This document shows, piece by piece, positions 5,764 through 19,274 of a DNA stretch of 64,000 nt (position 1 is its first letter; each line of letters begins with the position of its first letter). Position numbers and translations under genes: made by a program. The notes beneath the pieces are model-generated. The model saw only the letters and a program-made list of their open reading frames with translations, was not told where the DNA came from and ran no database searches. This stretch comes from Halanaeroarchaeum sp. HSR-CO (GTDB taxonomy: Archaea > Halobacteriota > Halobacteria > Halobacteriales > Halobacteriaceae): contig NZ_CP087724.1 of assembly GCF_024972755.1 (NCBI RefSeq), positions 62,001-126,000 of the forward strand, given 5' to 3'.

Positions 5764-5814
5764 GCCGTTTCGCTCTCCGGCAAACGTTTTTACTGTTCAT
5801 CGTGAAAGTGTGGC

Positions 5815-6423
5815 ATGGATATCGCCATTATCGTCTTCGAGGGATTCGACGAACTGGACGTGATCGGCCCGTTCGAGGTCCTCGAGAACGCCCGGGAAGC
5901 CGGGGCGGATCTGGCGGTGACGCTCTGTTCGGTCGACGACGCCTCCACGGTGACCGCCAGTCACGGGCTTCGAATCGGTGTCGACGCCAGGCTCGAGGAC
6001 TGCGACCCCGACGTCGTGCTGGTACCCGGTGGGCAGTGGGGCGCGAAAGGTACAACCGGGGCCTGGGCCGAGGCCGAACGTGGCGTCATCCCGGAGGCCG
6101 TCGCGGCGATGTACGATGAAGGGGCGACCATGCTGGGTGTCTGCACTGGCAGCATGCTCCTCTCACGCGCGCACGTAACCGACGGACGCCCGGCGATCAC
6201 CCACTCCGGGGCCATCGACGACCTCGAAGATTCGGGGGCAGACGTGGTCGACGCACGCGTCGTCGACGACGGGGACCTCGTGACGTCCGGCGGGGTGACC
6301 GCCGGTATCGACCTCGCCTTTCACTTCGTGCGACGGGAGTTCGGCGACGACATCGCCGATCGGGTCGCCGATCGGATGGAGTACGAGCCACGGGGCGAGG
6401 TCTATCGCCCCGGCGTTCAGTAG
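5815..6423 (+). CDS. DJ-1/PfpI family protein (class I glutamine-amidotransferase-like fold)
   Basis: 202 residues. The fold signature is clear: an N-terminal strand IAIIVFEGFDELDVIGPFEV, a central VLVPGG, and a nucleophile elbow GVCTGSMLL with Cys at about residue 110. The TSGGVTAGIDLAFHFV stretch near the C-terminus is typical of the branch holding isonitrile hydratase and AraC-like DJ-1 domains. No DNA-binding domain is attached. A small-molecule hydratase or a chaperone/deglycase role is possible, but the substrate is unknown. It lies 51 bases after the TRAP permease with its own T-rich box about 28 bases before the ATG, so it may be transcribed separately. Confidence 0.88.
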   Translation: MDIAIIVFEGFDELDVIGPFEVLENAREAGADLAVTLCSVDDASTVTASHGLRIGVDARLEDCDPDVVLVPGGQWGAKGTTGAWAEAERGVIPEAVAAMYDEGATMLGVCTGSMLLSRAHVTDGRPAITHSGAIDDLEDSGADVVDARVVDDGDLVTSGGVTAGIDLAFHFVRREFGDDIADRVADRMEYEPRGEVYRPGVQ

Positions 6424-6652
6424 CACGGTCAGCGGGGCCGACGATCGGGGTCTGATCGACGCCCGGTCTACTGCAGCAACCGCGAACGGATTACTGCCGT
6501 GGAAGAGCCGTTCCCCGGCGTGGGGACGATCTTGCGGTGCTGTCAGCGACGGTGTTCGCGTTGCCGTTTCCACGTCGATAGCTCGGCCCCCTCGAACCGG
6601 CCAGCGCTCCCCGCCCGGTATCGCCTCTCCGCCGAATTCTTCACGGATTATC

Positions 6653-6665
6653 GGTTATTTTATTC
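6653..6665 (+). promoter_or_regulatory. TATA box of the acyl-CoA dehydrogenase operon
   Basis: GGTTATTTTATTC is an AT-rich island about 31 bases before the ATG at 6691 in GC-rich surroundings. It fits the promoter of the three-gene operon 6691-9960. Confidence 0.5.
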
Positions 6666-6690
6666 TGTCGGGTGTTGACCAGTACCCTGT

Positions 6691-7896
6691 ATGACTAGTG
6701 AGTGGCGTGATACCGTCACCCTCGACGGTCAGCAGCGGCTCGTCCGCGACAGCATTCGGGAGATATCGGCGGAGTACGCCGACGAATACTGGCGGGACCG
6801 GGACATCTCCGGGGAGTACCCGAGCGACTTCGTCGATACCTTGGCCGATCACGACTGGCTCGGCATCTTGATCCCGGAGGAGTACGGCGGGGTCGGGATG
6901 GGGACCAAAGAGGTCGTCGTGATGATGGAGGAACTCGCGGCCGAGGGCGGCGGATTCACGGCGCCCCAGTCGATCCACGGTGGGATTTACAACAGTGTTC
7001 CCCTCGTCCGCCACGCGAGCGAGGACCTCAAAGACGAGATTCTTCCGGAACTCGCGAGTGGCGAGTCCCGATTACAGTCGCTGGGTCTCACCGAACCGAA
7101 CGCTGGCTCGGACTCCACCTCGATCGAGACCCAGGCCGAGAAGGACGGGGACGAATACGTCATCAACGGGCAGAAGATCTGGATTTCGCGGGTCGATCAC
7201 AGCGACTACGCGCTCGTGATGGCGCGGACGACGCCGAAAGCGGACGTCGAGAAGCGAACCCGCGGGATCTCGATGTTTCTGGTAGATCTGGAGGACGCCT
7301 ACGACCAGGACGCGTTGAAAATCCAGCAGATCCCCAAGACCGCGAGCACGGCCGTCCACTCCTTCGAGATGTGGTTCAAGGACCTTCGTGTCCCCGAACG
7401 AAATCTGGTCGGCGTCGAAGGCGAGGGCTTCTATCAGCTCCTCGACGGACTCAACGAGGAACGCCTCGCAATCGCCGCGGAGGCGCTCGGCCTCGGCTTC
7501 ACGGCCCTTCGCTCCGCCGTCGAGTACGCCAACGAGCGAGAGGTGTTCGACAGCCCAATCGGGTCGAACCAGGCGATGCAACACCCGATGGCGGAAGCCT
7601 ACGCCCGCCTCCGGGCAGCGAAACAGGTCACCTACAGCGCGGCCGAGGTGCTGGACGACGTCGAACGGACCGAGGCGGGCGCCCGCGCCAACACGGCGAA
7701 GTTCCTCTCCGCCGACGCCGCCTTCGACGCCGCCGACATCGCCGTGCAGGCCCACGGTGGCTTCGGCGTCGCCCGCGAGTACGACGTCGAACGGTACTTC
7801 CGGGAGGCCAGGCTCACCAGACTCGTCCCGATCACCCAGGAACTCGTGCTCAACTACCTCGGGAACTCCGTGCTGGGGCTTCCCCGTTCGTACTAA
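6691..7896 (+). CDS. Acyl-CoA dehydrogenase family protein
   Basis: 401 residues, the normal length for the FAD-dependent acyl-CoA dehydrogenase superfamily. The middle domain has GLTEPNAGSDSTS and the WISRVDHSDYALVMART strand; the helical C-terminal domain has REVFDSPIGSNQAMQH and QAHGGFGVAREYDVERYFREAR. The usual catalytic YEGT motif is absent; the equivalent reads LVPITQEL and the protein ends LGLPRSY, as I recall for one FadE-like branch. The enzyme should desaturate an acyl-CoA at C2-C3 and pass electrons to ETF. It is followed by a hydratase and a CoA transferase, so it probably performs step two of a short degradation path. Confidence 0.9.
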   Translation: MTSEWRDTVTLDGQQRLVRDSIREISAEYADEYWRDRDISGEYPSDFVDTLADHDWLGILIPEEYGGVGMGTKEVVVMMEELAAEGGGFTAPQSIHGGIYNSVPLVRHASEDLKDEILPELASGESRLQSLGLTEPNAGSDSTSIETQAEKDGDEYVINGQKIWISRVDHSDYALVMARTTPKADVEKRTRGISMFLVDLEDAYDQDALKIQQIPKTASTAVHSFEMWFKDLRVPERNLVGVEGEGFYQLLDGLNEERLAIAAEALGLGFTALRSAVEYANEREVFDSPIGSNQAMQHPMAEAYARLRAAKQVTYSAAEVLDDVERTEAGARANTAKFLSADAAFDAADIAVQAHGGFGVAREYDVERYFREARLTRLVPITQELVLNYLGNSVLGLPRSY

Positions 7897-7933
7897 TCTC
7901 TAAGTACATTCCGAACAACACCCGACAGGAACC

Positions 7934-8500
7934 ATGACAAACGACACCGATTCCACGGACCAGGACCGACGCATCGTCGCGGGGTGGCAAGGCCGCTACT
8001 TCGAAGATTTCGAGGTTGGCGACATCTACAAACATCCCTACGGCCGCACGGTCACGGAGACCGACAACGTGTGGATGACGAATATCACGATGAACCTCAA
8101 CCCGATGCACTTCAACGAGGCCTACGCGGCCGAGACGGAGTTCGGCGAACGCCTCGTCGACGGGACGTTCGTGATCGCACTCGTCGTCGGGATGAGCGTC
8201 ATCGACGTCTCTGCGAACGCCACGGCGAACCTGGGCTACGACGACATCCGCCACCACGGGCCGGTGTTCCACGGCGACACACTGTTCGCCGAGTCGGAGG
8301 TCATCGAGAAACGCGAGAGCGAGTCCAGAGACCACGTCGGTATCGTCACGACCGAACTGCGGGCGTTCAACCAGGACGACGAGCTGGTCCTCTCGCTCGA
8401 GCGGACGCCGATGGTACTGAAACGCGAGTACGCCCAGCCATCGCCCGAACAGCCAACCGGCTGGCCGGACGGCGTCGGTGCCCAGCCCGACGAGCTATGA
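7934..8500 (+). CDS. MaoC family hydratase, mesaconyl/itaconyl-CoA hydratase-like
   Basis: 188 residues with a hot-dog fold. After GRYFEDFEVGDIY comes the region that normally reads D-x-N-P-x-H in R-specific enoyl-CoA hydratases. Here it is TMNLNPMHFNEAYA followed by TEFGERLVDG, with Asn in place of the catalytic Asp. That TMN..P.H pattern, with FHGDTLFAESEV and RAFNQ further on, recalls the branch with mesaconyl-CoA and itaconyl-CoA hydratases rather than fatty acid hydratases. The substrate may therefore be a C5 unsaturated dicarboxylyl-CoA. Its stop codon overlaps the next start (ATGA), so it is translationally coupled to the CoA transferase. Confidence 0.85.
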   Translation: MTNDTDSTDQDRRIVAGWQGRYFEDFEVGDIYKHPYGRTVTETDNVWMTNITMNLNPMHFNEAYAAETEFGERLVDGTFVIALVVGMSVIDVSANATANLGYDDIRHHGPVFHGDTLFAESEVIEKRESESRDHVGIVTTELRAFNQDDELVLSLERTPMVLKREYAQPSPEQPTGWPDGVGAQPDEL

Positions 8501-9960
8501 CGGCTCCGAGCGAACGACTGGCGGGCGACCTTCCCATCGTCGACGCCGAGGCGGCCGCGGAGATAGTCCCCGACGACGCCACCGTCGCCGTCAGCGGCTT
8601 CGGAAGCGTCGGCAACCCGAAAGCTGTACCGTCGGCGCTCGCCCGGGCTGCCGAATCTGGGCGCGACCTCTCGCTCTCGATCGTCTCGGGCGGGAGTACC
8701 GGCGAACAGATCGACACACAACTGATCGAGGCCGACGCGATGGCCCGCCGGTACCCGTTTCAGGGACGCTCGACCTCCAGGAAGGCGATCAACGATCGTC
8801 GGGTCGCATTCCAGGACACGCACATCGCCCGCCTCGGCGAGAGCGTCGAACTGGGCACGTTCGTCGACGCGGACGTCGCCATTATCGAGGCCGTCGCGGT
8901 CGAACCGGGGCGGCTCGTCCCGTCGACCTCAATCGGCCACACGCCCTCGTACATCGCAGCGGCGGACGAGGTCATCGTGGAAGTCAACGAGAGCCAGCCT
9001 ATCGAACTCGCCGAGGTTCACGACGTCTTCCGGCCCGGTCTGCCGCCCCACCGCGGCCCGATCCCGCTCTCCGCCCCGGGTGAACGGATCGGCGATCCGT
9101 GGGTCGAATTCGACGATTCGAAACTCCGGGGTGTCGTGCTCACGGACGATCCGGATACGCCCTACAGTTTCCGGGAGCCGACGGAGACAGATCAGCGGAT
9201 CGCCGACAATTTCGCCTCGTTCATGGCCCAGGAAATGGAACGCAATCCGGCCCTCTCGGAGACGATTCGTCTCCAGTTCGGCGTCGGGAGCATGGGCAAT
9301 GCCCTCATGGGTGCTCTCAGCTCCTTCGAGACCGGTGGTCGGCCGCTGGAGTACTACGGCGAGGTGATCCAGGACGGGATGCTCGACCTGCTGGAGGACG
9401 GCACCTTCCGTGACGCGAGTGCCACGTCGCTCGCGCTCTCCGAGGACGGCCAGGCACGGTTGTTCGAGAATATCGAACGGTACGACGACGAGATCGTGTT
9501 ACGCCCGGCGGACATCTCCAACAGGGCCGAACTCATCGACCGCTTCGGGGTGGTCGCGGTCAACAGTGGCGTCGAGATCGACATCTACGGGAACGTCAAC
9601 TCGACCCACGTGAACGGAACTCGCATGTTGAACGGGATCGGTGGGAGCGGGGACTTCAACCGGAACGGCGTGGTCTCTGTTACCGCCCTTCCCTCCACCG
9701 CCGCCGGGGGCGATATCTCGCGGGTGCGACCGGCCGTCACGCACGTGGATCATACCGAGCACGACATCTCAGTCATCGTCACTGAACACGGGGTCGCCGA
9801 TCTGCGTGGACTCTCCCCGGTCGAACGGGCCCAGGAGATCATCACCGAATGCGCTCATCCCGACTATCGCGATCGACTCAACGACTATCTCGACCACGCC
9901 AGCGAAGAGGCGGGCCACACGCCTCACGACCTCGACGTCGCGTACAGCTGGCTTGACTGA
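8497..9960 (+). CDS. Acetyl-CoA hydrolase/transferase family CoA transferase
   Basis: 487 residues if started at the ATG that overlaps the preceding stop. A much longer frame exists upstream, but it runs through the MaoC gene and is a shadow. Family signatures are TVAVSGFGSVGNPK near the start, YYGEVIQDGMLDL with the Glu that forms the CoA thioester in Cat1/AarC-type enzymes, and GIGGSGDFNRN and VTEHGVADLRG near the end. The reaction is likely CoA transfer between acetyl- or succinyl-CoA and a carboxylic acid. With the upstream dehydrogenase and hydratase this supplies activation, dehydrogenation and hydration of one acid. The exact acid is not determined. Confidence 0.9.
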   Translation: MTAPSERLAGDLPIVDAEAAAEIVPDDATVAVSGFGSVGNPKAVPSALARAAESGRDLSLSIVSGGSTGEQIDTQLIEADAMARRYPFQGRSTSRKAINDRRVAFQDTHIARLGESVELGTFVDADVAIIEAVAVEPGRLVPSTSIGHTPSYIAAADEVIVEVNESQPIELAEVHDVFRPGLPPHRGPIPLSAPGERIGDPWVEFDDSKLRGVVLTDDPDTPYSFREPTETDQRIADNFASFMAQEMERNPALSETIRLQFGVGSMGNALMGALSSFETGGRPLEYYGEVIQDGMLDLLEDGTFRDASATSLALSEDGQARLFENIERYDDEIVLRPADISNRAELIDRFGVVAVNSGVEIDIYGNVNSTHVNGTRMLNGIGGSGDFNRNGVVSVTALPSTAAGGDISRVRPAVTHVDHTEHDISVIVTEHGVADLRGLSPVERAQEIITECAHPDYRDRLNDYLDHASEEAGHTPHDLDVAYSWLD

Positions 9961-10270
9961 TCGAGCGGCGGCGTCGGGACGACTCTCGCCGGGTAACGCC
10001 ATCTATCTGTCGCGTTTGTTCGAATAATTTGGAGCACCCGCGAGACGGCTCTGGAAACGGTTTTCGGCCGCGATATTTCGGATCATCTCGTAATACGGCG
10101 TCCGAAACGGGCTATCAGCCGTTCGAATAACTCCAACGAATGACAACCGGATAGCTCGATCCGATAGCGGGGTGGCTATCTTTACAGCAATATGGATGTA
10201 AAGGCAGACGGAATATCTGGAAGAGGGGGTGTGCATTTTCCGGGCTGGTCGACGGTCGGATATCTCGCTG
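9961..10270. other. Intergenic region without a recognised gene
   Basis: About 310 bases between the CoA transferase and the frameshifted gene. I see no credible gene. Short AT-rich patches are scattered through it. Confidence 0.45.
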
Positions 10271-10700
10271 CTACTCGGCCCTCTCGCCGGGCGAACGGTC
10301 AGCCTCCGCGATGTCGTCCAGTATCGGTTCGAGATACGGTACATCGGTGGGGGTTCGACAATTGGGACGTGCCCGGTTCCAACACGATAGCGCCTACCGA
10401 ACACCCGAGGACGGCGGGTCGATCGCGGTCCAGCGCGTCGATGAATCCCACGACGAACGTCGGGTCGTCGTGACCGGTCGTGATTGCTTCCTCGTCGACG
10501 GTCACCGCGTGCTCGCGGGCTCCGAAGGCGACCCGTATCGTCGACTCGAAGCCCCGTGTGTAACCATCGAACTGTTCGTCCTGGCTGACGGCATCGACGG
10601 CGGCGACGAGCCATCGCCGATCGGGGACGGTTGCCGTTTTGTCCCGCCTGGCCGAACCCGATGAATCGTTCTCGTGGGTGCGCTGTTTGGGACTGTCCAT
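10271..10700 (-). pseudogene. Frameshifted small gene of unknown function
   Basis: The reverse strand reads a plausible acidic haloarchaeal protein from an ATG at 10700 (MDSPKQRTHEND) through RRWLVAAVDAVSQDEQFDGY and DPTFVVGFIDALDRDRPAV to LEPGTSQLSNP. There the frame degrades into Arg-rich sequence. Moving by one base at the C5 run near 10350 restores a convincing end, TDVPYLEPILDDIAEADRSP then stop at 10271. The intact product would be about 142 residues. It does not match a family I can name; a faint likeness to sterol-carrier (SCP-2) folds is not strong enough to assign. A TATA-like patch at 10763-10777 could be the promoter. It is either a recent pseudogene or a homopolymer sequencing error. 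Confidence 0.5.
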
Positions 10701-11330
10701 CGCCGATTCCGAACCCGTGTTCGATCGAGACCCACGCTGAATGCAGGCCGCACGCAAACATACTATTTATGATATAAAAACACTCCTACCAGTTTCCAGT
10801 AATACTACTCGCCCCGTCTATCTCGGTTGATTCACCACTCGAAATGCAGCGGGTATCGGCGGGTATCGACCCGAACACGGCGACGTGTTGTCACACGTCC
10901 GGATAGTTCCGGTGGGATTCGATTGGCATCGGTGGCTGGTGTCGTATTCCTGCTGGGGCCTCGCAGAAACGATGTATCTCCGTGGGTAGCCCCTGACTGT
11001 ACCGAAATCGTCGTTCCTATCCTCACGCTCTAGCGACGGATACGCCGGTTCGACGACCGGGGGTATCACGCGCAGCGAGCACGCCTGAGACCTCTGGTTG
11101 CTGATCGATATGCGGTGGTGTGAGACCAAAACAATACGAAAATTTACTATATGTGTATTTTGATACTACGGTGCAGCGAACGGATGAGACCGATCCGTAA
11201 TTCGGCCTCCGCTTTCCCGGGACGTCTACAGGCGGAACAGGCCGAGTGCCTCGAGGCTGGACCCCGAGGCGTCTACACGGACAGACGTCGGTGACCCAAT
11301 GGTTAACCGCTGAGATGCCGTACCACGGAC
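10701..11330. other. Long AT-enriched intergenic region
   Basis: About 630 bases with two AT-rich islands, at 10755-10800 and 11130-11170 (TTTACTATATGTG). Both look like promoters, but no convincing reading frame follows either. Frames at 10818-11129 are Arg/Ser/Pro-rich with no motif. A TTAA core near 11301-11306 may serve the peroxiredoxin. The region may be decayed sequence. Confidence 0.4.
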
Positions 11331-11828
11331 ATGGTTACCGAAGGTGACGCGGCCCCAGATTTCACCGTCCCTCGGGCGAACGGGGCGGCCTACAACGACG
11401 TCGAACCGTTCACGTTGTCCGACCATCTCGGATCGGGACCGGTCAACCTGGCGTTCTACCCGGCGGCGTTCACGAACGGCTGCACGGCAGAGATGTGTTC
11501 GTTCCGCGATTCGATGCACGAATTCGACAGCGTGAACGCGTCGGTCTACGGGATCAGCGTCGATCTGCCGTTCGCGCAGAACGTCTGGATTCAGGAGCAC
11601 GACCTCAACTTCCCCATGCTCTCGGACTGGACCCACGAGGTCATCCACGAGTACGACGTGGTCGATCCCGCCATGTACGACATGATAGAAGTTGCTGAAC
11701 GGAGCGTCTTCGTACTCGACGAGAGGGGGACGGTCGCGTATCGGTGGGTTCGTGACGGCGACAATCCCGATTTCGATCGGTTCGTCGACGATCTGTACGA
11801 CGTGGTCGCCTCGGTGTCGACGTCGTAA
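11331..11828 (+). CDS. Peroxiredoxin (AhpC/TSA, Bcp-like)
   Basis: 165 residues, thioredoxin fold. The peroxidatic motif P-x3-T-x2-C is present as PAAFTNGC with Cys51. A second Cys lies five residues on (CTAEMC, Cys56), the spacing of the resolving Cys in BCP/PrxQ-type enzymes. The C-terminal half (RSVFVLDERGTVAYRWV) is the standard strand pair. It should reduce hydrogen peroxide or organic peroxides in the cytoplasm using a thioredoxin-like donor; the tandem thioredoxin-fold protein at 15622 is a candidate. A TTAA core about 27 bases before the ATG points to a leaderless transcript. The flavoenzyme gene that follows, if an oxidase, would itself produce peroxide. Confidence 0.9.
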   Translation: MVTEGDAAPDFTVPRANGAAYNDVEPFTLSDHLGSGPVNLAFYPAAFTNGCTAEMCSFRDSMHEFDSVNASVYGISVDLPFAQNVWIQEHDLNFPMLSDWTHEVIHEYDVVDPAMYDMIEVAERSVFVLDERGTVAYRWVRDGDNPDFDRFVDDLYDVVASVSTS

Positions 11829-11891
11829 GGTCCTCGGGCTGGGCCTCCCGGATGGATAGTGTTTATCTAAATTCACGGATAATCGTGGCAT

Positions 11892-13016
11892 ATGGTGGAC
11901 CCGATCGTCGTCATCGGTGCAGGGATCGCGGGTGCGAGTACTGCGTATCACCTCACCGGACGAACTGATCGACCGGTCCGCGTCATCGAGCGGGGGGCGA
12001 TCGCCGCGGAGACGACTGGTAAATCGACCGCCGTGTTTCGGTTCCACGGGGAACCGACCCTCGACCGGATGAAGCGATACGCGCTGGAGACGTTCAACGA
12101 GTTTCTGGCCGACGCCGCCGCCATGACCGAGTACGAACCACTGGGCGGGCGCCTGGAGGTCGCCACGAGCGAGGCGGCCGCCGAGGACGTACGAGCCGTC
12201 GACGCACCCATAGCAGCCCACGTGGATCCAGCCGATCTCGACGAGACACTTCTGTTCCCGCAACTCGCGACAGACGTACTCGAAGCCGCCGTGTTCCTCC
12301 CCAATGCTGGCTACTTCCGACCCACTGAGCTGACCTTCGAATTCGTCGAACGCGCCGAAAAACGGGGCGCGACATTCGTCGAGGGTACGACCGTCCGGGG
12401 CGTTTCGACCGAGGGCGGGCGGGTGACTGGCGTCGAGACCGATTCGGAGACCATCGAGGCCCGTGCCGTCGTGAGCGCGGCCGGCCCCTGGAACCTCCAG
12501 GTGGGTCGGAGTGCGGGTGTCGAACTACCGATTCGACACACGCTTGCGCCGATCCTCCGGCTGGAACCGCTCGCCGATCGTGTCACCACGATTCCGAATA
12601 TCGTCCACGAGGACACGGGGTATTACCTCCGCGGATCGGCCAACGGCGAGGTTCTCGTCGGCCACTCTCCGGGCGATTACGAGGCCGGTACCGAATACGA
12701 CCCGGCGACGGTCAGCAACTCGGTTCCCGCGGAGATCCGGAAGAACGCGATCGACGTTATCGAGTTGCTCGTTCCGTCGCTCATCGATTCCGACATCGTC
12801 GAGGAGTGGGCCGGCGTCCGATCCCGTATCCCGGACGAACGCCCGATGGTGGGGCCCGCCGGTCCGGACGGGTTGTATTTCGTCGCCTTCCACTCGGAAG
12901 GACTCCAGCTCGCCACCGCGGCCGGTCGTCGGGTGGCGGAGATCGTGACCGGCGAATCGGACCCCGGCGACCTGTCCCCGGAACGGTTCGAGAACCATCC
13001 AGACGCGGACTTCTAA
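11892..13016 (+). CDS. FAD-dependent oxidoreductase, DAO family
   Basis: 374 residues, the size of monomeric sarcosine or D-amino-acid oxidase-like proteins. The FAD-binding Rossmann motif opens the protein (IVVIGAGIAGASTAYHL), with Glu at the end of the second strand (VIERG). A substrate domain follows, and the C-terminus has GPDGLYFVAFHSEGLQLATAAG, the second FAD contact. The family oxidises secondary or D-amino acids or related amines; the substrate is unknown. A GTTTATCT box lies 26 bases before the ATG. It may function with the peroxiredoxin 63 bases upstream. Confidence 0.9.
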   Translation: MVDPIVVIGAGIAGASTAYHLTGRTDRPVRVIERGAIAAETTGKSTAVFRFHGEPTLDRMKRYALETFNEFLADAAAMTEYEPLGGRLEVATSEAAAEDVRAVDAPIAAHVDPADLDETLLFPQLATDVLEAAVFLPNAGYFRPTELTFEFVERAEKRGATFVEGTTVRGVSTEGGRVTGVETDSETIEARAVVSAAGPWNLQVGRSAGVELPIRHTLAPILRLEPLADRVTTIPNIVHEDTGYYLRGSANGEVLVGHSPGDYEAGTEYDPATVSNSVPAEIRKNAIDVIELLVPSLIDSDIVEEWAGVRSRIPDERPMVGPAGPDGLYFVAFHSEGLQLATAAGRRVAEIVTGESDPGDLSPERFENHPDADF

Positions 13017-13032
13017 CCCGTCCGGACGCGAA

Positions 13033-13779
13033 TCACTCGATCCGCATCGGCCGCATCGCGTCGGTAATCAGTCCCACGCCCCCCGATTCGAACGCCGTTC
13101 CCACCGTCGATGGACCCGTCTCCGCGAGCCACGCCCAGTACTCCTCGAGGGCGTCGTAGTATTCGAGCATGTTCGGATGGAAGAGCATCATCGCCCCGTT
13201 TTCGGCCTGTTCGCTGAGTCGTTCGAACGCCGTTTTCGGGTCGGCGCCTTCGTTCAGCAGGATCAGATCGTATGGATGGGCCGGCTCCCGGAACGCGAGG
13301 TCCGCGGGAACTTCGGCATCGGTGCGACCGAGGACCCAACTCAGACCCAGTTCGTCGACGACTCGCAGCGTGGCCTCGTTCACCGTCTGTCGGGGGGCGA
13401 TAAACCCCTCGGGTGTGACGCCGGCGGCCGCTTCGATCGCCTCGTAGCCTCTGGTGAGGTTCTCTCTGACGAGGTCGTACTCGATGGTCTCACAGGCCAG
13501 ATGTCGGTGCCCGTGGAGGACGATCTCGTGTCCGGCATCGTCGAGATACGCGATGGTGTCGGCGAACCGCTCGGCCTCCCGCCCGAGGAAGGAGAAACTG
13601 CTCGTGGCACCCTCGGCGGCTAATCGATCGGCGAGGCGGACGTAATCGTCGTGGGTCCACTCGCCGAGATTGTGGAAGGCCCGGGCTGTTCGTAACCGGT
13701 CGTTTTGCCCCTTCTCGGCGATCACTTCGAAATACGTCTCGACTTCCCGCTGTCGCAGGTCGGAAACGTCTTTCATCAT
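13033..13779 (-). CDS. Polysaccharide deacetylase (NodB-like) family protein
   Basis: 248 residues. The NodB-homology core includes GATSSFSFLGREAERF near residue 55, a metal-binding HGHRH motif (LHGHRHLAC) near residue 90, and a late LFHPNM with another possible metal-ligand His. Such enzymes remove N- or O-acetyl groups, or hydrolyse related C-N bonds, on sugars using a divalent metal. No signal peptide is visible, so it probably works in the cytoplasm, perhaps on a nucleotide sugar or small amide. It is convergent with the DAO gene, with 16 bases between stops. The first convincing Met pair is at 13779. Confidence 0.85.
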   Translation of the reverse strand: MMKDVSDLRQREVETYFEVIAEKGQNDRLRTARAFHNLGEWTHDDYVRLADRLAAEGATSSFSFLGREAERFADTIAYLDDAGHEIVLHGHRHLACETIEYDLVRENLTRGYEAIEAAAGVTPEGFIAPRQTVNEATLRVVDELGLSWVLGRTDAEVPADLAFREPAHPYDLILLNEGADPKTAFERLSEQAENGAMMLFHPNMLEYYDALEEYWAWLAETGPSTVGTAFESGGVGLITDAMRPMRIE

Positions 13780-14155
13780 CGATCGATTGGGACCCCCTCT
13801 TCATAAACCGCATACCTCCAGACTGGACGTGACCGAACGCGATGTGTCCGCGGTGGCCGAGGCGCGCGGACGACGCACGGATCGACACGCGGAGATGCCG
13901 ATGATCGGTTGGACCCACGCCGTCCACGCCTTCCCGATCGATTTCGGTCCGAACACCGCGTCGTGACTCGACGAGGGCGAACGCCACCGTGACCGATCTC
14001 GGCGATGCGAGGAGCCCCAGACACCACGGGGGCTCGGTACCAGGTTCGCGAACTCGTCCCGCTGATCGACGACGCCGACCGAGTCGACGGTAAACCGGCG
14101 CTCCGACGCCGCGGTGTGTAAACGCTTTTTTCCCGGCACACTGTAGCCGAGTAGC
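13780..14155. other. Divergent intergenic region
   Basis: 376 bases between the deacetylase and HMG-CoA reductase starts. A T-rich box (CTTTTTTC) lies about 26 bases before the reductase ATG. A short plus-strand frame ending near 13966 reads IGWTHAVHAFPIDFGP, but no start, family or context supports it as a gene. Confidence 0.45.
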
Positions 14156-15430
14156 ATGGACTCCCGAATCTCCGGGTTCTACAAGCTATCCGTCGAGGAC
14201 CGACGCGAGACAATCGCCGAACTGGCCGACCTCTCCGAGGAGGCCGTCGAAGCGCTCGGAGGCGTCGGACTGGACGACGTCCGGGCGGATACGGTGAGCG
14301 AGAACGTCATCGGCACCCTCGAGTACCCGTTGTCGGTCGCGACCAACTTCCGCATCGACGGCGAGGACACACTGGTGCCGATGGCCGTCGAGGAGACCAG
14401 CGTCGTGGCAGCGGCGTCGTACGCCGCACGGATGGCTCGCGAGGAGGGTGGGTTCCGGACCGACGTCAGCGGCCCCATCATGATCGCGCAGATCCAGGCG
14501 GTGGACGTCGACGACCCCCACGCGGCGAAGATGCGCATCCTCCAGGCCGAAGACGACCTCATCGAACTCGCCAACGAACAGGACCCGGTCCTCGTGAAGT
14601 TCGGCGGTGGCTGTGAGTCAGTCGAGGTCCGCGTCATCGACACGCCCCGGGGCGAGATGGTCGTCTCCCATCTCATCGTGAACGTCCAGGATGCGATGGG
14701 CGGGAACGCGGTCAACTCGATGGCCGAGGCGCTCGCCCCCGAGATAGAGGACCTGACTGGTGGTGACGTCGAACTGCGTATCCTCTCGAACCTCGCCGAC
14801 CGTCGTCTCGCGCGGGCAACCTGTCGTGTCCCGCCGGAGATGCTGGCCGACGACGACAGCGACCTCACGGGCGAAGAGGTTCGCGACCGCATCGTCGACG
14901 CCTGGGCGTTCGCCGAGGGCGACCCGTATCGTGCGGCCACCCACAACAAGGGCATCATGAACGGTATCGACGCGGTGACGACCGCGACGTTCAACGACTG
15001 GCGGGCCATCGAGGCCGGCGCACACACCTACGCCGCGATGGGTGGTTACGACTCCCTGACGACCTACGAGGTGGACGCGGACGGCTACCTCTCCTGTGCC
15101 ATCGAACTGCCGATCCAGGTCGGCACGGTCGGCGGTGCGACCCAGCTCCAGCCGGTCGCGGGGGCGGCCATGGAGATCCTCGACGTCGACTCCGCCGACG
15201 AACTCGCCGGCGTCTTCGCGGCGGTGGGTCTGGCACAGAACCTCGCCGCCCTCCGCGCGCTCACCAGCGAGGGCATCCAGCAAGGCCACATGAGCCTCCA
15301 CGCGAAGAACATCGCCATCCAGGCTGGCGCTCCCGGCGAGATCGTCGACGAGGTCGCCGAACGCATGGTCGAGGAGGACGCCGTCCGCCAGGACCGTGCC
15401 GAGGAGCTCATCGACGAGTTGACGTCCTGA
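14156..15430 (+). CDS. Hydroxymethylglutaryl-CoA reductase, class II type
   Basis: 424 residues, almost exactly the length of the class II enzyme of Pseudomonas mevalonii. Class II motifs are present: SENVIGTLEYPLSVATNF, PMAVEETSVVAAAS (acidic pair at 79-80), DAMGGNAVNSMAEALAP, LRILSNLADRRLA, HNKGIMNGIDAV with Lys266, NDWRAIEAGAH with Asp282, and QGHMSLHAKN with the catalytic His. Lys and Asp fall one residue from the known positions 267 and 283. The class I signature DAMGMNM is absent. The enzyme interconverts HMG-CoA and mevalonate. The genetically best-known haloarchaeal enzymes are class I, so this is either an alternative biosynthetic enzyme for archaeal lipids or a catabolic one. It stands alone. 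Confidence 0.93.
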   Translation: MDSRISGFYKLSVEDRRETIAELADLSEEAVEALGGVGLDDVRADTVSENVIGTLEYPLSVATNFRIDGEDTLVPMAVEETSVVAAASYAARMAREEGGFRTDVSGPIMIAQIQAVDVDDPHAAKMRILQAEDDLIELANEQDPVLVKFGGGCESVEVRVIDTPRGEMVVSHLIVNVQDAMGGNAVNSMAEALAPEIEDLTGGDVELRILSNLADRRLARATCRVPPEMLADDDSDLTGEEVRDRIVDAWAFAEGDPYRAATHNKGIMNGIDAVTTATFNDWRAIEAGAHTYAAMGGYDSLTTYEVDADGYLSCAIELPIQVGTVGGATQLQPVAGAAMEILDVDSADELAGVFAAVGLAQNLAALRALTSEGIQQGHMSLHAKNIAIQAGAPGEIVDEVAERMVEEDAVRQDRAEELIDELTS

Positions 15431-15621: not shown

Positions 15622-16263
15622 ATGGCAATACTCTCCGATCAGAACCGCAGCGACGTCGAGGAGGTCTTCGCCGAAATGTCCGAGGAAGTTACGGCGTACA
15701 TCTTCACCGACGACTGCGAATACTGCGACGACACTGTCGAACTCAACGAGGAACTGGAAGAACTGACAGACAACTTCACCGTCGAGGTCCACGACCTCGA
15801 CAGCGCCCTCGCCGAGGAGTACGACGCCGCACGCCACGGCAGCGGTCCGGTCACCGTCCTGACCGACGGCGAACTGAAGGGCGTCCAGTACTTCGGCATT
15901 CCGTCGGGCCAGGAGTTCGGCGCCTACGTCCGTGACATCGTCGCGGTCTCCACCGGCGAGACGGGTCTCGACGACGACATCAAGGCCGAACTGGCCGAGA
16001 TCGACGAGGAAGTCAACCTGAAGGTCTTCGTCACGCTGACCTGCCCGCACTGCCCGCGGGCGGTCGAGACGGCCCACAAGTTCGCCATCGAGAACGAGAA
16101 CATCACCTCCGAGATGGTGGAGGCCCAGGAGTTCATGGAGCTCTCCCAGGAGTTCGGCGTCCAGGGCGTCCCGCAGGTGAACATCAACGATCACGACGGA
16201 CAGTTCACCGGCGCCCAGCCCGAGGCACAGTTCCTCGAGCAGATCCAGCGCTCGCTCAACTAA
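15622..16263 (+). CDS. Tandem thioredoxin-fold protein disulfide oxidoreductase
   Basis: 213 residues with two thioredoxin/glutaredoxin folds, the layout of archaeal protein disulfide oxidoreductases (PDO). Each fold carries a CxxC active site: CEYC at residues 32-35 and CPHC at 141-144. The second fold has the cis-Pro loop (GVPQVNIN). PDO proteins exchange disulfides with client proteins and can pass electrons from a thioredoxin reductase to peroxiredoxins, so the peroxiredoxin at 11331 is a plausible client. It is strongly acidic and has no signal peptide, so it is cytoplasmic. It forms a single-gene unit with its own TATA box. Confidence 0.9.
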   Translation: MAILSDQNRSDVEEVFAEMSEEVTAYIFTDDCEYCDDTVELNEELEELTDNFTVEVHDLDSALAEEYDAARHGSGPVTVLTDGELKGVQYFGIPSGQEFGAYVRDIVAVSTGETGLDDDIKAELAEIDEEVNLKVFVTLTCPHCPRAVETAHKFAIENENITSEMVEAQEFMELSQEFGVQGVPQVNINDHDGQFTGAQPEAQFLEQIQRSLN

Positions 16264-16503: not shown

Positions 16504-17022
16504 TCACTTCTCGACGTCCAGGAGGGCGACCCGCTCGCAGACCAGCGATTGGAGCGACGCGTCCGACGCGGCTCGTTCGGGGTCGGTGACGTCGAAGTAG
16601 TTTGCAATCAGGTTGGGGTCGGTCTGGCCGAACGCATCGTCGGGGGCGACGACGGTCTCGACCTCCTCGGCGACGCGCTTCTCGTCGGGGCCATCGACGA
16701 CGACGAGGACCGAACTCGTACCCGGCTCGAGCCCCATCTCCAGGGCCTGTTCGATCTGTCGCCGGCCGGCCGCATAACAGAGTATCTCGACGGCCCGGTC
16801 GTCGGCGACGTTCTCGCCGCGCTCCATGGACCGATTGGCGTGCTCGACCGCCGTCTCGAGGTGTCGGCGCCCCGCGACGTACCGGGCGTCGAACGCCTGG
16901 ACCGCCGTTCCAGGGCGGCTCGCGCCGTCGAGTTCGGCCACGAACGCGTCGACGGACGCGTAGGCTGGCGTCTCGGCCGGGGCGTCCTCGCCGATGTGGA
17001 CTCGTCCCTCGACGACCCGCAT
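16504..17022 (-). CDS. cgi121: KEOPS complex subunit Cgi121
   Basis: 172 residues. Features of Cgi121 are the central ARYVAGRRHLETAVEHANRSME segment, the helix AVEILCYAAGRRQIEQALEMG and the strand SSVLVVVDG. KEOPS, with Kae1, Bud32 and Pcc1, makes the threonylcarbamoyl adenosine modification at position 37 of ANN-decoding tRNAs, and Cgi121 helps recruit the tRNA. Its start codon overlaps the Hel308 stop by one base (TGATG), so the two are translationally coupled; I recall this pairing in other haloarchaea. An ORB-like element follows its stop. Confidence 0.85.
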   Translation of the reverse strand: MRVVEGRVHIGEDAPAETPAYASVDAFVAELDGASRPGTAVQAFDARYVAGRRHLETAVEHANRSMERGENVADDRAVEILCYAAGRRQIEQALEMGLEPGTSSVLVVVDGPDEKRVAEEVETVVAPDDAFGQTDPNLIANYFDVTDPERAASDASLQSLVCERVALLDVEK

Positions 17023-19274
17023 CAGAAATCACCCAGGTTGGCCTGGGCTTCGGCGCCGTCGCGGTCCGGTTCCTCGGGGGCGGCGTCCTCGTCCCCTTCG
17101 ACGTCGTCCATCGACGGGTCGGGGTGGCCGACGCTCTCGAGGACCGTCTCGGCGGTCTTCGTTCGGCCACGGAGCGCACCGAGGACTCTCGGCTTCGACG
17201 CCTCGCGGAGCTCCGGTCGCGACTCGATACCGGCGTCGTATAGGCGTCGGGCCCGCTTGCGACCAACGTTGTCCACCCGGACCAGGTCGAGGAGCTCCTC
17301 GCTCACGCCGTGTTTCACGCGGATTCGAGCCTCTCTGACGGCCGTCGTCGACTCGACGTCCAGTTCGGCGGCGAGGCGTTCGGCGGCGTTGAGCAACCAC
17401 TCGGCGGTGTCGACCTTCCCGCGGATATCGCCCGGCCCGACCTCGTACCGCTCGGCGATGCGGTCCTCGTCCAGTTCCTCGGCCCAGTCCTCCAGGAGCT
17501 TCGCGGTCTTGAGCGCGGAAAGCCAGTCTTCCCACTCGGCCTCCTCGAACTCCGTCGGGGCGTGACCGAGCAGCTCCGCTTCGCGTTCGTAGGCGATTTC
17601 GGTGTAGGTTTCGTCGTCGCCCGACCGCAGGTACAGCTGGTACATGTCCGGCGTCCGGGAGACGAGGTGGTACAGCCCGAGCGCCGTGGGGTCCGGTCCG
17701 CCGTCCTCCAGCCCGTGGATGATCTCGGCCGCACTCATCGGATCGACGTAGAGTTGCGAGACCAGGTGGCCGGTCGGGGTGGCCGTCAGCCCGTCACCCT
17801 CCCGTTCCAGGAAGCCGTTTCGCTCGAGGTACGCCAGGACGCTCTCCGTGACGGTTTCGAGTCGACCCACCTCGCTCGTCTGGGAGGCGTACAGCGTCTC
17901 TTGGAGGAACTCCAGAAGCGCGGTCCGGGTCGTCGCGAAGCCCGTCGCCACCGTTGCGAGGACGTGCGTCCGGAGGGCCGGTTCGGCGGCCAGTTTCGAT
18001 CGGACCGGCTCCGGGTCGGCGTAGATGTACCGGTCGAACAGCTCCTCGAGTTCCCCGTGCGAGGACGCCAGCAGGACGGCCTCGCCGTAGGGATCGAGGC
18101 CCGGTCGCCCCGCGCGGCCGAACATCTGGTGGACCTCCAGTGCGGACAGCGGTTGCATGCCGCCCGCGGTGCCGTCGTAGCGCTGCCAGTCGCGGACGAT
18201 CACCCGGCGGCTGGGCGTGTTGACCCCCGCGGCCAGCGTCGGCGTAGCGCTGACCACGCGGATCAGCCTGTCGCGGAAGGCGTCCTCGACCAGACTGCGA
18301 TGTTCGCGAGCGAGCCCCGCGTGGTGAAAGGCGGCGCCCTTCTCGACGGCGTCGGCCAGGTTCTCGCTCGTCTCCGTATCACTCACCTCGCGGATCTGGG
18401 TGGCGACCTCCCGGAGCGCTGCTCGTTCCTCGGTGTCGAGGCCGTTCCCGGTGACCCCCGCGAGTCGCCGCGCGGCCGCCTCGGCGTTCCGCCGCGAGTT
18501 GACGAACACGAGCGTCGACCCGTCATCCGCCAGGGTGTCGTCGACGATGGCCGCGGTCTGGCTCTTCGATCCGACCGCGAGTTCGCGCTGACTGCCGTCG
18601 TCGAAGTGCAGCGCGTTGCCGTAGTGTACGCCGGTCTTGAGGTCGATGGGCCGCCAGGTCGAGTCCACGAGTTCGGCGTCGAGCCAGTCAGCGATCTCGC
18701 CCGCGTTCCCGATGGTCGCCGAGAGCGCGACGACCTGGAGGTCGGGGATGCGCTGGCGGAGTTTCGCGAGTGTGACCTCGAGGGTTGGCCCCCGGCTGGC
18801 ATCGTCGACGAGGTGGACCTCGTCGGCCACGATACACGAGAGGTTCTGCATCCACGTCGCGCCGTTCCGGATGAGCGAGTCGACCTTCTCGGAGGTGGCC
18901 ACGACGACGTCGTTGTCGCCGAGCCACTCGCCGTCGCTCTGATAGTTGCCCGTCGAGACGCCGATGGAGAGGCCGAACTGCTCGAGTTCGGCGAACTCCT
19001 CGGCCTTCTCGCTCGCGAGCGCCCGGAGCGGGACGATGTAGAGGGCGGTCCCACCGGTTCCGTTCTGGCGCCCCCGTTCGATCGAGGAGAGCATGGCGAG
19101 TTTCGCGACGAGCGTCTTGCCGCTGGCGGTCGGTACGCTCGCGACGAGGTTTCGCCCGTCCGTGACGCCCGCCTCGACGGCCTCGGCCTGGGGCGGGTAG
19201 AGCTCCTCGATGCCCTGCGACTGCAGGAACGCGGGCACCCCGTCGGGCAGTCCCGACAGGTCCGTGACCTTCAT
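17022..19274 (-). CDS. hel308: ATP-dependent DNA helicase Hel308
   Basis: 750 residues, the usual length for this superfamily 2 Ski2-like helicase. Motifs in order: Q-motif region [10 protein letters not shown], Walker A PTASGKT at 48-54, DEVH box near residue 152, SAT motif (ALSATIGN), [10 protein letters not shown], and [10 protein letters not shown] (motif VI). The C-terminal winged helix, ratchet and helix-hairpin-helix domains follow, including [21 protein letters not shown]. Hel308 unwinds the lagging strand at stalled forks and restrains recombination. The acidic tail beyond about residue 715 is a low-complexity extension. A GGTTAAACC box lies about 27 bases before the ATG. The downstream partner is cgi121. 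Confidence 0.95.

Follow-up and report, generated by a model that had tools for sequence, protein, structure and literature searches.

The gene at positions 14156-15430 (plus strand) of the analysed window, a 64,000-nucleotide stretch (G000:C1:62001-126000) of the 2.79-Mb genome of Halanaeroarchaeum sp. HSR-CO (G000), encodes a class II HMG-CoA reductase and coexists with an intact class I gene elsewhere in the same genome. No reductase other than class II was found in the related genus Halodesulfurarchaeum, where the slot in which class I genes are located in relatives is clearly empty in two of three genomes. Some other haloarchaea carry the class II gene in a cassette with an AtuA-type gene and a symporter, and the lineage of the window nests within the carriers of this cassette. 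These states are probably successive stages in the recruitment of a transferred enzyme and the displacement of the ancestral one.

Identity of the class II reductase

The protein encoded at this locus (424 aa, ATG start) scored 445.5 bits against TIGR00532, the degradative, class II model (cut-off 259.95), and 361.5 bits against PF00368, whereas its score against the class I model TIGR00533 was 52.3 bits, with a cut-off of 441.8. The closest solved structures are 6dio, 1qax and 6p7k (E-values of 7e-140 to 1.5e-134), and the human enzyme 1dq8 matches at an E-value of 6e-5 only. The protein contains the motif DAMGGNAVN and lacks the class I motif DAMGMNM, so that both the class assignment and the missing class I motif of the original prediction were borne out; with its low TIGR00533 score, the protein does not fall within class I. 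Alignment to 1qax places the catalytic residues at Glu80 (codon at 14393-14395), Lys265 (14948-14950), Asp281 (14996-14998) and His378 (15287-15289), all on the plus strand. Each of them is identical in 98/98 rows of the class II alignment, which consists of 20 haloarchaeal and 78 non-haloarchaeal sequences. We take Glu80 to be the equivalent of Glu83 of the P. mevalonii enzyme. The motifs that had been listed beforehand are present, but the numbers assigned to the lysine and the aspartate (266 and 282) were one too high. In family, length and the catalytic Glu, Lys, Asp and His, the protein resembles MvaA of the P. mevalonii type (1qax; E-value of 1.2e-135). Residue 183, the G of DAMGGN that is usually A, is Gly in 13 of the 20 haloarchaeal rows and in 1 of the 78 others. 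The gene has a GC3 of 0.88, and its product is net acidic, like the neighbours. Judged by family and residues, the gene is real and intact and encodes a class II HMG-CoA reductase.

At the cofactor-binding helix, codons 154-155 (14615-14620, plus strand) specify Glu-Ser, where the usual pair in relatives is Lys/Arg-Asp. Among the 78 non-haloarchaeal rows, residue 154 is Lys or Arg in 73; among the 20 haloarchaeal rows, it is Glu in 17. Residue 155 is Asp in 75/78 and 10/20 of these rows, respectively, and Ser in the window protein. In most haloarchaeal class II proteins, Glu at 154 precedes one of Asp, Asn, Ser, Glu and Thr at 155. Asp at the position of D146 presumably denotes strict NADH use in MvaA of the mvaAB type. 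A reading of the cofactor from residue 155 alone was dropped, because Asp is also present in 5wpj, which comes from S. pneumoniae, a species reported to prefer NADPH. According to three papers (PMC13370337, PMC12292504 and PMC10070635), class II enzymes vary in cofactor use.

Neighbourhood of the class II gene

The class II gene is flanked by the same genes in Halanaeroarchaeum and Halodesulfurarchaeum. The next gene, in the window as well as in Halanaeroarchaeum sulfurireducens and Halodesulfurarchaeum, encodes a thioredoxin/glutaredoxin-like protein of 213 aa (15622-16263, plus strand; PF13192/PF00462). It is followed on the minus strand by two markers of the shared locus, a CGI-121 family protein (16504-17022; PF08617) and a helicase of 750 aa (17022-19274), which is Hel308-like as read from its start. 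The identities of these three proteins at loci L164, L166, L167 and L168 are 75-87, 46-76 and 72-88%, respectively, the helicase copy of L168 being cut by the contig end. Upstream of the class II gene, one T-rich stretch is common to the two Halanaeroarchaeum species and another is found in Halodesulfurarchaeum; a comparison of this region across both genera gave nothing decisive with respect to a shared promoter.

The two genera group together in an unrooted gpmI tree of seven genomes (97/96) and, on an unstarred branch (63/89), in a DUF5817 tree of nine genomes. The predicted genes at window positions 5800-14150, between a conserved left flank and the class II gene, have no match at the corresponding place of H. 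sulfurireducens; among them are genes for a polysaccharide deacetylase and an oxidoreductase of the DAO family. This difference may reflect either an insertion in one species or a deletion in the other. In addition, a BREX-5 locus (pglX and pglZ) is annotated on the H. sulfurireducens plasmid (L184, 1-20000).

Class I gene and mevalonate pathway in the same genome

A search of the whole genome with PF00368 identified two reductases, the class II enzyme of the window and one class I enzyme. The class I gene (C1:2417721-2418839) is intact and has the motifs DAMGMNM and DKKPAAIN. The class II enzyme is therefore not the sole reductase of this genome, which had been one of the two roles proposed for it and which the search for a class I hmgA was meant to decide. 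Between the two Halanaeroarchaeum species, the class II proteins are 92% identical (dN 0.048, dS 0.55, dN/dS about 0.09) and the class I proteins 82% identical (dN 0.102, dS 0.67, dN/dS about 0.15). Both genes are constrained, class II more strongly. Because class I is intact and under purifying selection in this genome, class II may be just auxiliary there.

The other proposed role, that of an extra catabolic enzyme, found no partner genes here. The best match to the HMG-CoA lyase model NF004283 in the genome scored 70.3 bits, with a cut-off of 246, and no lyase match was found in the window or adjoining the class II gene. Among 19 class II genomes, a lyase over the cut-off occurs in two, one of which (G379) carries the cassette described below, and in none of Halanaeroarchaeum or Halodesulfurarchaeum. 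AtuA is absent from all five class II genomes of the window's family (G000, G093, G001, G007 and G392). No gene of the cassette was found in the window, where the one match was to a CBS-domain query that lies outside the cassette; the symporter search covered the window and the flanks of class II genes. The catabolic proposal is thus not supported for this genome, although the cassette-bearing relatives do look catabolic.

The remainder of the mevalonate pathway was also searched. Mevalonate kinase was over the cut-off in 8/8 genomes, class-II-only ones included. HMG-CoA-synthase-like matches were found in 9/9 genomes, all below the cut-off of the archaeal model TIGR00748; those of approximately 450 aa were taken, by their length, as probable HMG-CoA synthases. 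Mevalonate is required for archaeal lipids, and the sole reductase of the class-II-only genomes must therefore make it.

Distribution of the two classes and empty class I slots

In a sweep of 391 haloarchaeal genomes, drawn from a larger group, class II was over the cut-off in 18, which is a patchy distribution. Of these 18, 15 hold class I as well, and class II is alone in G001, G007 and G162. Within the window's family (26 genomes), both genes were found in the two Halanaeroarchaeum genomes (G000 and G093) and class II only in all three Halodesulfurarchaeum genomes (G001, G007 and G392). The other 21 are without class II; 20 of them hold class I, and G376 has just a 40-residue end piece. The suggestion that class II may be the only biosynthetic reductase, which is wrong for the window's own genome, thus fits Halodesulfurarchaeum.

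The genomic context of class I shows where the gene is missing. A DUF5817 gene was found in 26/26 genomes of the family, and the order DUF5817-hmgA-amidohydrolase-gpmI is common to the five class I genomes compared (G000, G093, G393, G010 and G012); in G010 and G012, hmgA is separated from the amidohydrolase gene by roughly 2.5-3 kb of other sequence. In G007, the DUF5817 and amidohydrolase genes are 44 bp apart and hmgA is absent; G001 has the same order. In G392 (72% complete), a 43-residue amidohydrolase match closely follows DUF5817 on a 3.7-kb contig, which is weaker evidence for an empty slot. The class I slot of Halodesulfurarchaeum is therefore clearly empty in two genomes and, on partial evidence, in the third, which, from the gene order, we read as a clean deletion of class I after the arrival of class II. 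A comparable case was found in another family, where G373 has the order icd-TPR-like gene-cupin-hmgA-DUF5817. In the congener G162, this set of genes lacks hmgA; the gap between cupin and DUF5817 is 461 bp and lies well inside a 61.9-kb contig. G162 represents a second case in which class I has disappeared from its locus, and its class II protein belongs to a haloarchaeal subclade other than that of the window.

A match to a non-class-II reductase is missing in 3/18 class II genomes versus 1/373 others (Fisher p 0.0003; the rows are not independent, and one of the 372 matches is the 40-residue piece). General decay of class I in class II genomes was also considered and rejected by counts of changes at near-invariant columns: 0 to 6 where both genes occur (15 genomes), 12 in the QH_10_67_22 MAG and 0 to 8 in 37 others, the columns having been picked on these 37 comparison genomes and thus being biased against the 15.

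In the QH_10_67_22 MAG (L083, 671-3341), the class II gene and a class I homologue adjoin each other. The class I copy lacks approximately 40 codons near its start, has a frame change there and has DANGMNM for DAMGMNM. Among the loci compared, DANGMNM was found only in L049 (G275), L052 (G161) and this MAG, all three of which also have class II. We give this copy little weight as a case of decay, because it comes from a MAG and shares unusual residues with G275 and G161. Outside haloarchaea, a Methanoperedens MAG (L101), retained as one of the 80 best loci from a set of at least 586, has a class I gene (56% identical to a haloarchaeal one, E-value of 1.7e-145) about 1.4 kb from class II on the same contig (1714-2961 and 4337-5533) and is a further case of coexistence.

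Class II genes linked to AtuA and a symporter

On plasmids of Salinigranum and Halalkalicoccus, the stop codon of the class II reductase gene overlaps the start of a gene annotated as AtuA. Two small genes lie downstream, followed on the opposite strand by a symporter gene and a gene for a small further protein. Pfam searches of the Salinigranum cassette identified AtuA (472 bits), an AtuA ferredoxin-like protein and a sodium:solute symporter. The same six genes occur together in seven genomes (G280, G080, G379, G332, G373, G283 and G233), with the symporter pair partly rearranged and AtuA of G280 in two frames. The cassette is thus present in seven of the eight genomes of the window's subclade outside the window's family; the eighth, the QH_10_67_22 MAG (family unknown), is without AtuA. 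AtuA was detected in 7 of the 23 genomes searched, exactly the seven cassette genomes; it was not found in the five class II genomes of the window's family, the QH MAG, the seven genomes of the other subclade and three class-I-only relatives. No AtuA match was found in the flanks of the 78 non-haloarchaeal class II loci either (56 of these exceed 12 kb, and some flanks are short), and 14 of the 78 are flanked by a lyase homologue (31-35% identical to the query). No classical HMG-CoA lyase was found beside the cassette reductases.

AtuA is a member of a lyase family tied to HMG-CoA-like substrates; the substrate attributed to it is HMG-CoA with an extended side chain. From its gene content and chemistry, the cassette looks like a system for mevalonate uptake and degradation. 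The logic would be that of mvaAB of P. mevalonii, in which reductase and lyase are paired, plus uptake. The cassette proteins belong to the same families as AtuA (PF07287 and PF23544), which in haloarchaea are split in two genes and paired with a class II reductase and a symporter. In contrast to mvaAB, no lyase adjoins the window gene, the cassette relatives carry AtuA instead, and the Asp of the cofactor helix is Ser in the window protein. AtuA is listed among enzymes 'characterized or tentatively identified' in PMC4847356, and in P. aeruginosa the HMG-CoA lyase for the breakdown of leucine and acyclic terpenes is reported to be encoded by liuE. The existence of liuE counts against simply reading AtuA as an HMG-CoA lyase.

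Phylogeny and mobility

In the careful class II tree, from which 14 of the 98 rows were dropped (five long branches and nine near-copies), all 20 haloarchaeal proteins group as a single clade (100/100) with a long stem. Constraining this clade with the other archaea cost 11 log units, a placement that was not rejected (AU p 0.296). The phylogeny that the original prediction had called for thus gave a single haloarchaeal clade but neither its sister group nor its donor. The suggested replacement by transfer is supported as a process, given the class-II-only state, the shared neighbourhood and the empty slot of Halodesulfurarchaeum; the window's genome itself is at the stage of coexistence.

Of 37 plasmid records matching class II, five are haloarchaeal (Salinigranum, Halalkalicoccus, Halomontanus, Halocatena and Natronosalvus), and the gene is therefore mobile. 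Near-alike class II genes were also observed in two genera, at L015 (G384) and L018 (G360), the latter on a 415-kb plasmid of Halocatena salina; this is a sign of recent transfer.

The branch uniting the window's subclade is unstarred (88/91) in the careful tree and open in a tree to which three plasmid sequences were added and in which 12 of the 78 non-haloarchaeal rows were used. A single clade of all nine cassette rows was rejected (AU p 0.0023). The window lineage, Halodesulfurarchaeum and the QH MAG nest within the cassette carriers on starred branches (99/95 and 100/97), which force at least two changes in cassette state. The five rows of the window's family do not form their own clade in the free tree, the QH MAG being among them, and such a clade was not rejected (AU p 0.062). 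Although the count alone allows separate gains, the simplest account is that these lineages and the QH MAG most likely lost the cassette partners. The nesting of the window lineage inside the cassette carriers thus suggests that it lost its partners and was recruited to biosynthesis.

Proposed history and alternative explanations

We propose that horizontal transfer brought the class II reductase into haloarchaea, where it would circulate partly within the cassette. There, the symporter would import mevalonate, the reverse-running reductase would convert it to HMG-CoA, and the AtuA-type lyase with its ferredoxin-like partner would split the product. The common ancestor of Halanaeroarchaeum and Halodesulfurarchaeum would have kept the reductase without its cassette partners and recruited it in the forward direction, supplying mevalonate for archaeal lipids. 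In the window's genome it would work beside the ancestral class I enzyme, and in Halodesulfurarchaeum class I would then have been deleted, with class II as the sole reductase found. We consider this account, from transfer and cassette origin through recruitment and coexistence to displacement, to be probable as a whole. The parts that we infer are the direction in which the enzyme works, the cassette's chemistry and mevalonate synthesis by class II in this organism. A stronger statement can be made only tentatively: that the class II reductase, a split AtuA/AtuA-ferredoxin lyase and a sodium:mevalonate symporter may constitute an undescribed haloarchaeal mevalonate module, that its reductase may have been co-opted for lipids, with the ancestral class I gene then deleted, that lineages with class II may have lost class I on at least two occasions, and that Halanaeroarchaeum may be a living intermediate.

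The most serious alternative, which we nevertheless regard as unlikely, is that the two enzymes are conditional isozymes of the same step, class I using NADPH and class II perhaps NADH, suited to different redox states and both kept for good. Halanaeroarchaeum and Halodesulfurarchaeum are anaerobic sulfur respirers, to which a redox-dependent pair would be useful, and the two genes are intact and constrained in both Halanaeroarchaeum species; the variable cofactor use of class II enzymes is also in line with this idea. However, haloarchaeal class II proteins differ at the cofactor residue, 5wpj from the reportedly NADPH-preferring species S. pneumoniae has the Asp too, so that the cofactor cannot be read from this position, and Halodesulfurarchaeum manages without class I. 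This last point also bears on the possibility that class II is still catabolic in this organism, with imported or recycled mevalonate converted to HMG-CoA and cleaved by an unrecognised lyase. The NCBI model TIGR00532 is indeed named 'degradative', and relatives of the gene lie in the symporter-AtuA cassette, but neither a lyase over the cut-off nor AtuA was found in the window's genome or in H. sulfurireducens, and class II, as the sole reductase found in Halodesulfurarchaeum, must be biosynthetic there. We therefore consider a catabolic role here to be improbable, more so than a pair of isozymes.

Two further explanations carry very little probability beside the proposed recruitment and displacement. 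Haloarchaea have FcrA, a fatty acyl-CoA reductase that, in PMC11948995, is described as a second HMG-CoA reductase homologue of Halobacteriales with another substrate, and class II could by analogy act on another acyl-CoA. FcrA is class-I-related according to the same paper, whereas the window protein has the catalytic residues and the DAMG-type motif of its class II relatives, and Halodesulfurarchaeum, with class II as its sole enzyme, requires it to reduce HMG-CoA; we regard this idea as highly improbable. Least likely is that the absence of class I from Halodesulfurarchaeum and G162 reflects a gap in assembly or detection. It is true that the slot of the 72%-complete G392 is seen only in part and that G162 is in 80 contigs. 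However, the 99%-complete G007 genome is a single contig, G007, G001 and G162 all have the slot but no hmgA in it, and the excess of missing class I among class II genomes given above points the same way. This explanation is largely refuted.

Comparison with known systems and implications

Boucher and colleagues reportedly described in 2001 the replacement of class I by class II in Archaeoglobales and Thermoplasmatales. The class II enzymes of Archaeoglobales and other archaea are likewise found in archaeal hosts and presumed to be biosynthetic. Unlike these, the class II sequences of haloarchaea group in a separate clade, some genomes still have both genes, and in relatives the class I slot is visibly empty. 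The halobacterial class I reductase, which is also present in the window's genome, is expected to catalyse the same reaction and belongs to a different class. The class II family and its reported replacement of class I in other archaea are thus already known, whereas we did not find the haloarchaeal cassette or the twice-seen empty slot in print. A literature search that took in few subscription papers found no publication on a class II reductase in haloarchaea or on a cassette of AtuA and reductase.

HMG-CoA reductase catalyses the committed step of archaeal lipid synthesis, and the mevinolin marker of haloarchaeal genetics acts on this enzyme. The occurrence of class I only, both classes and class II only in related genera, together with the visible empty slot, offers a stepwise view of the non-orthologous displacement of an essential enzyme. 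The cassette provides a concrete candidate assignment for AtuA and for an unassigned symporter. Bacterial class II enzymes are weakly inhibited by statins, as stated in PMC10070635. Natural statin tolerance is accordingly predicted for Halodesulfurarchaeum, and partial tolerance for Halanaeroarchaeum; mevinolin selection would then be less effective in these haloarchaea.
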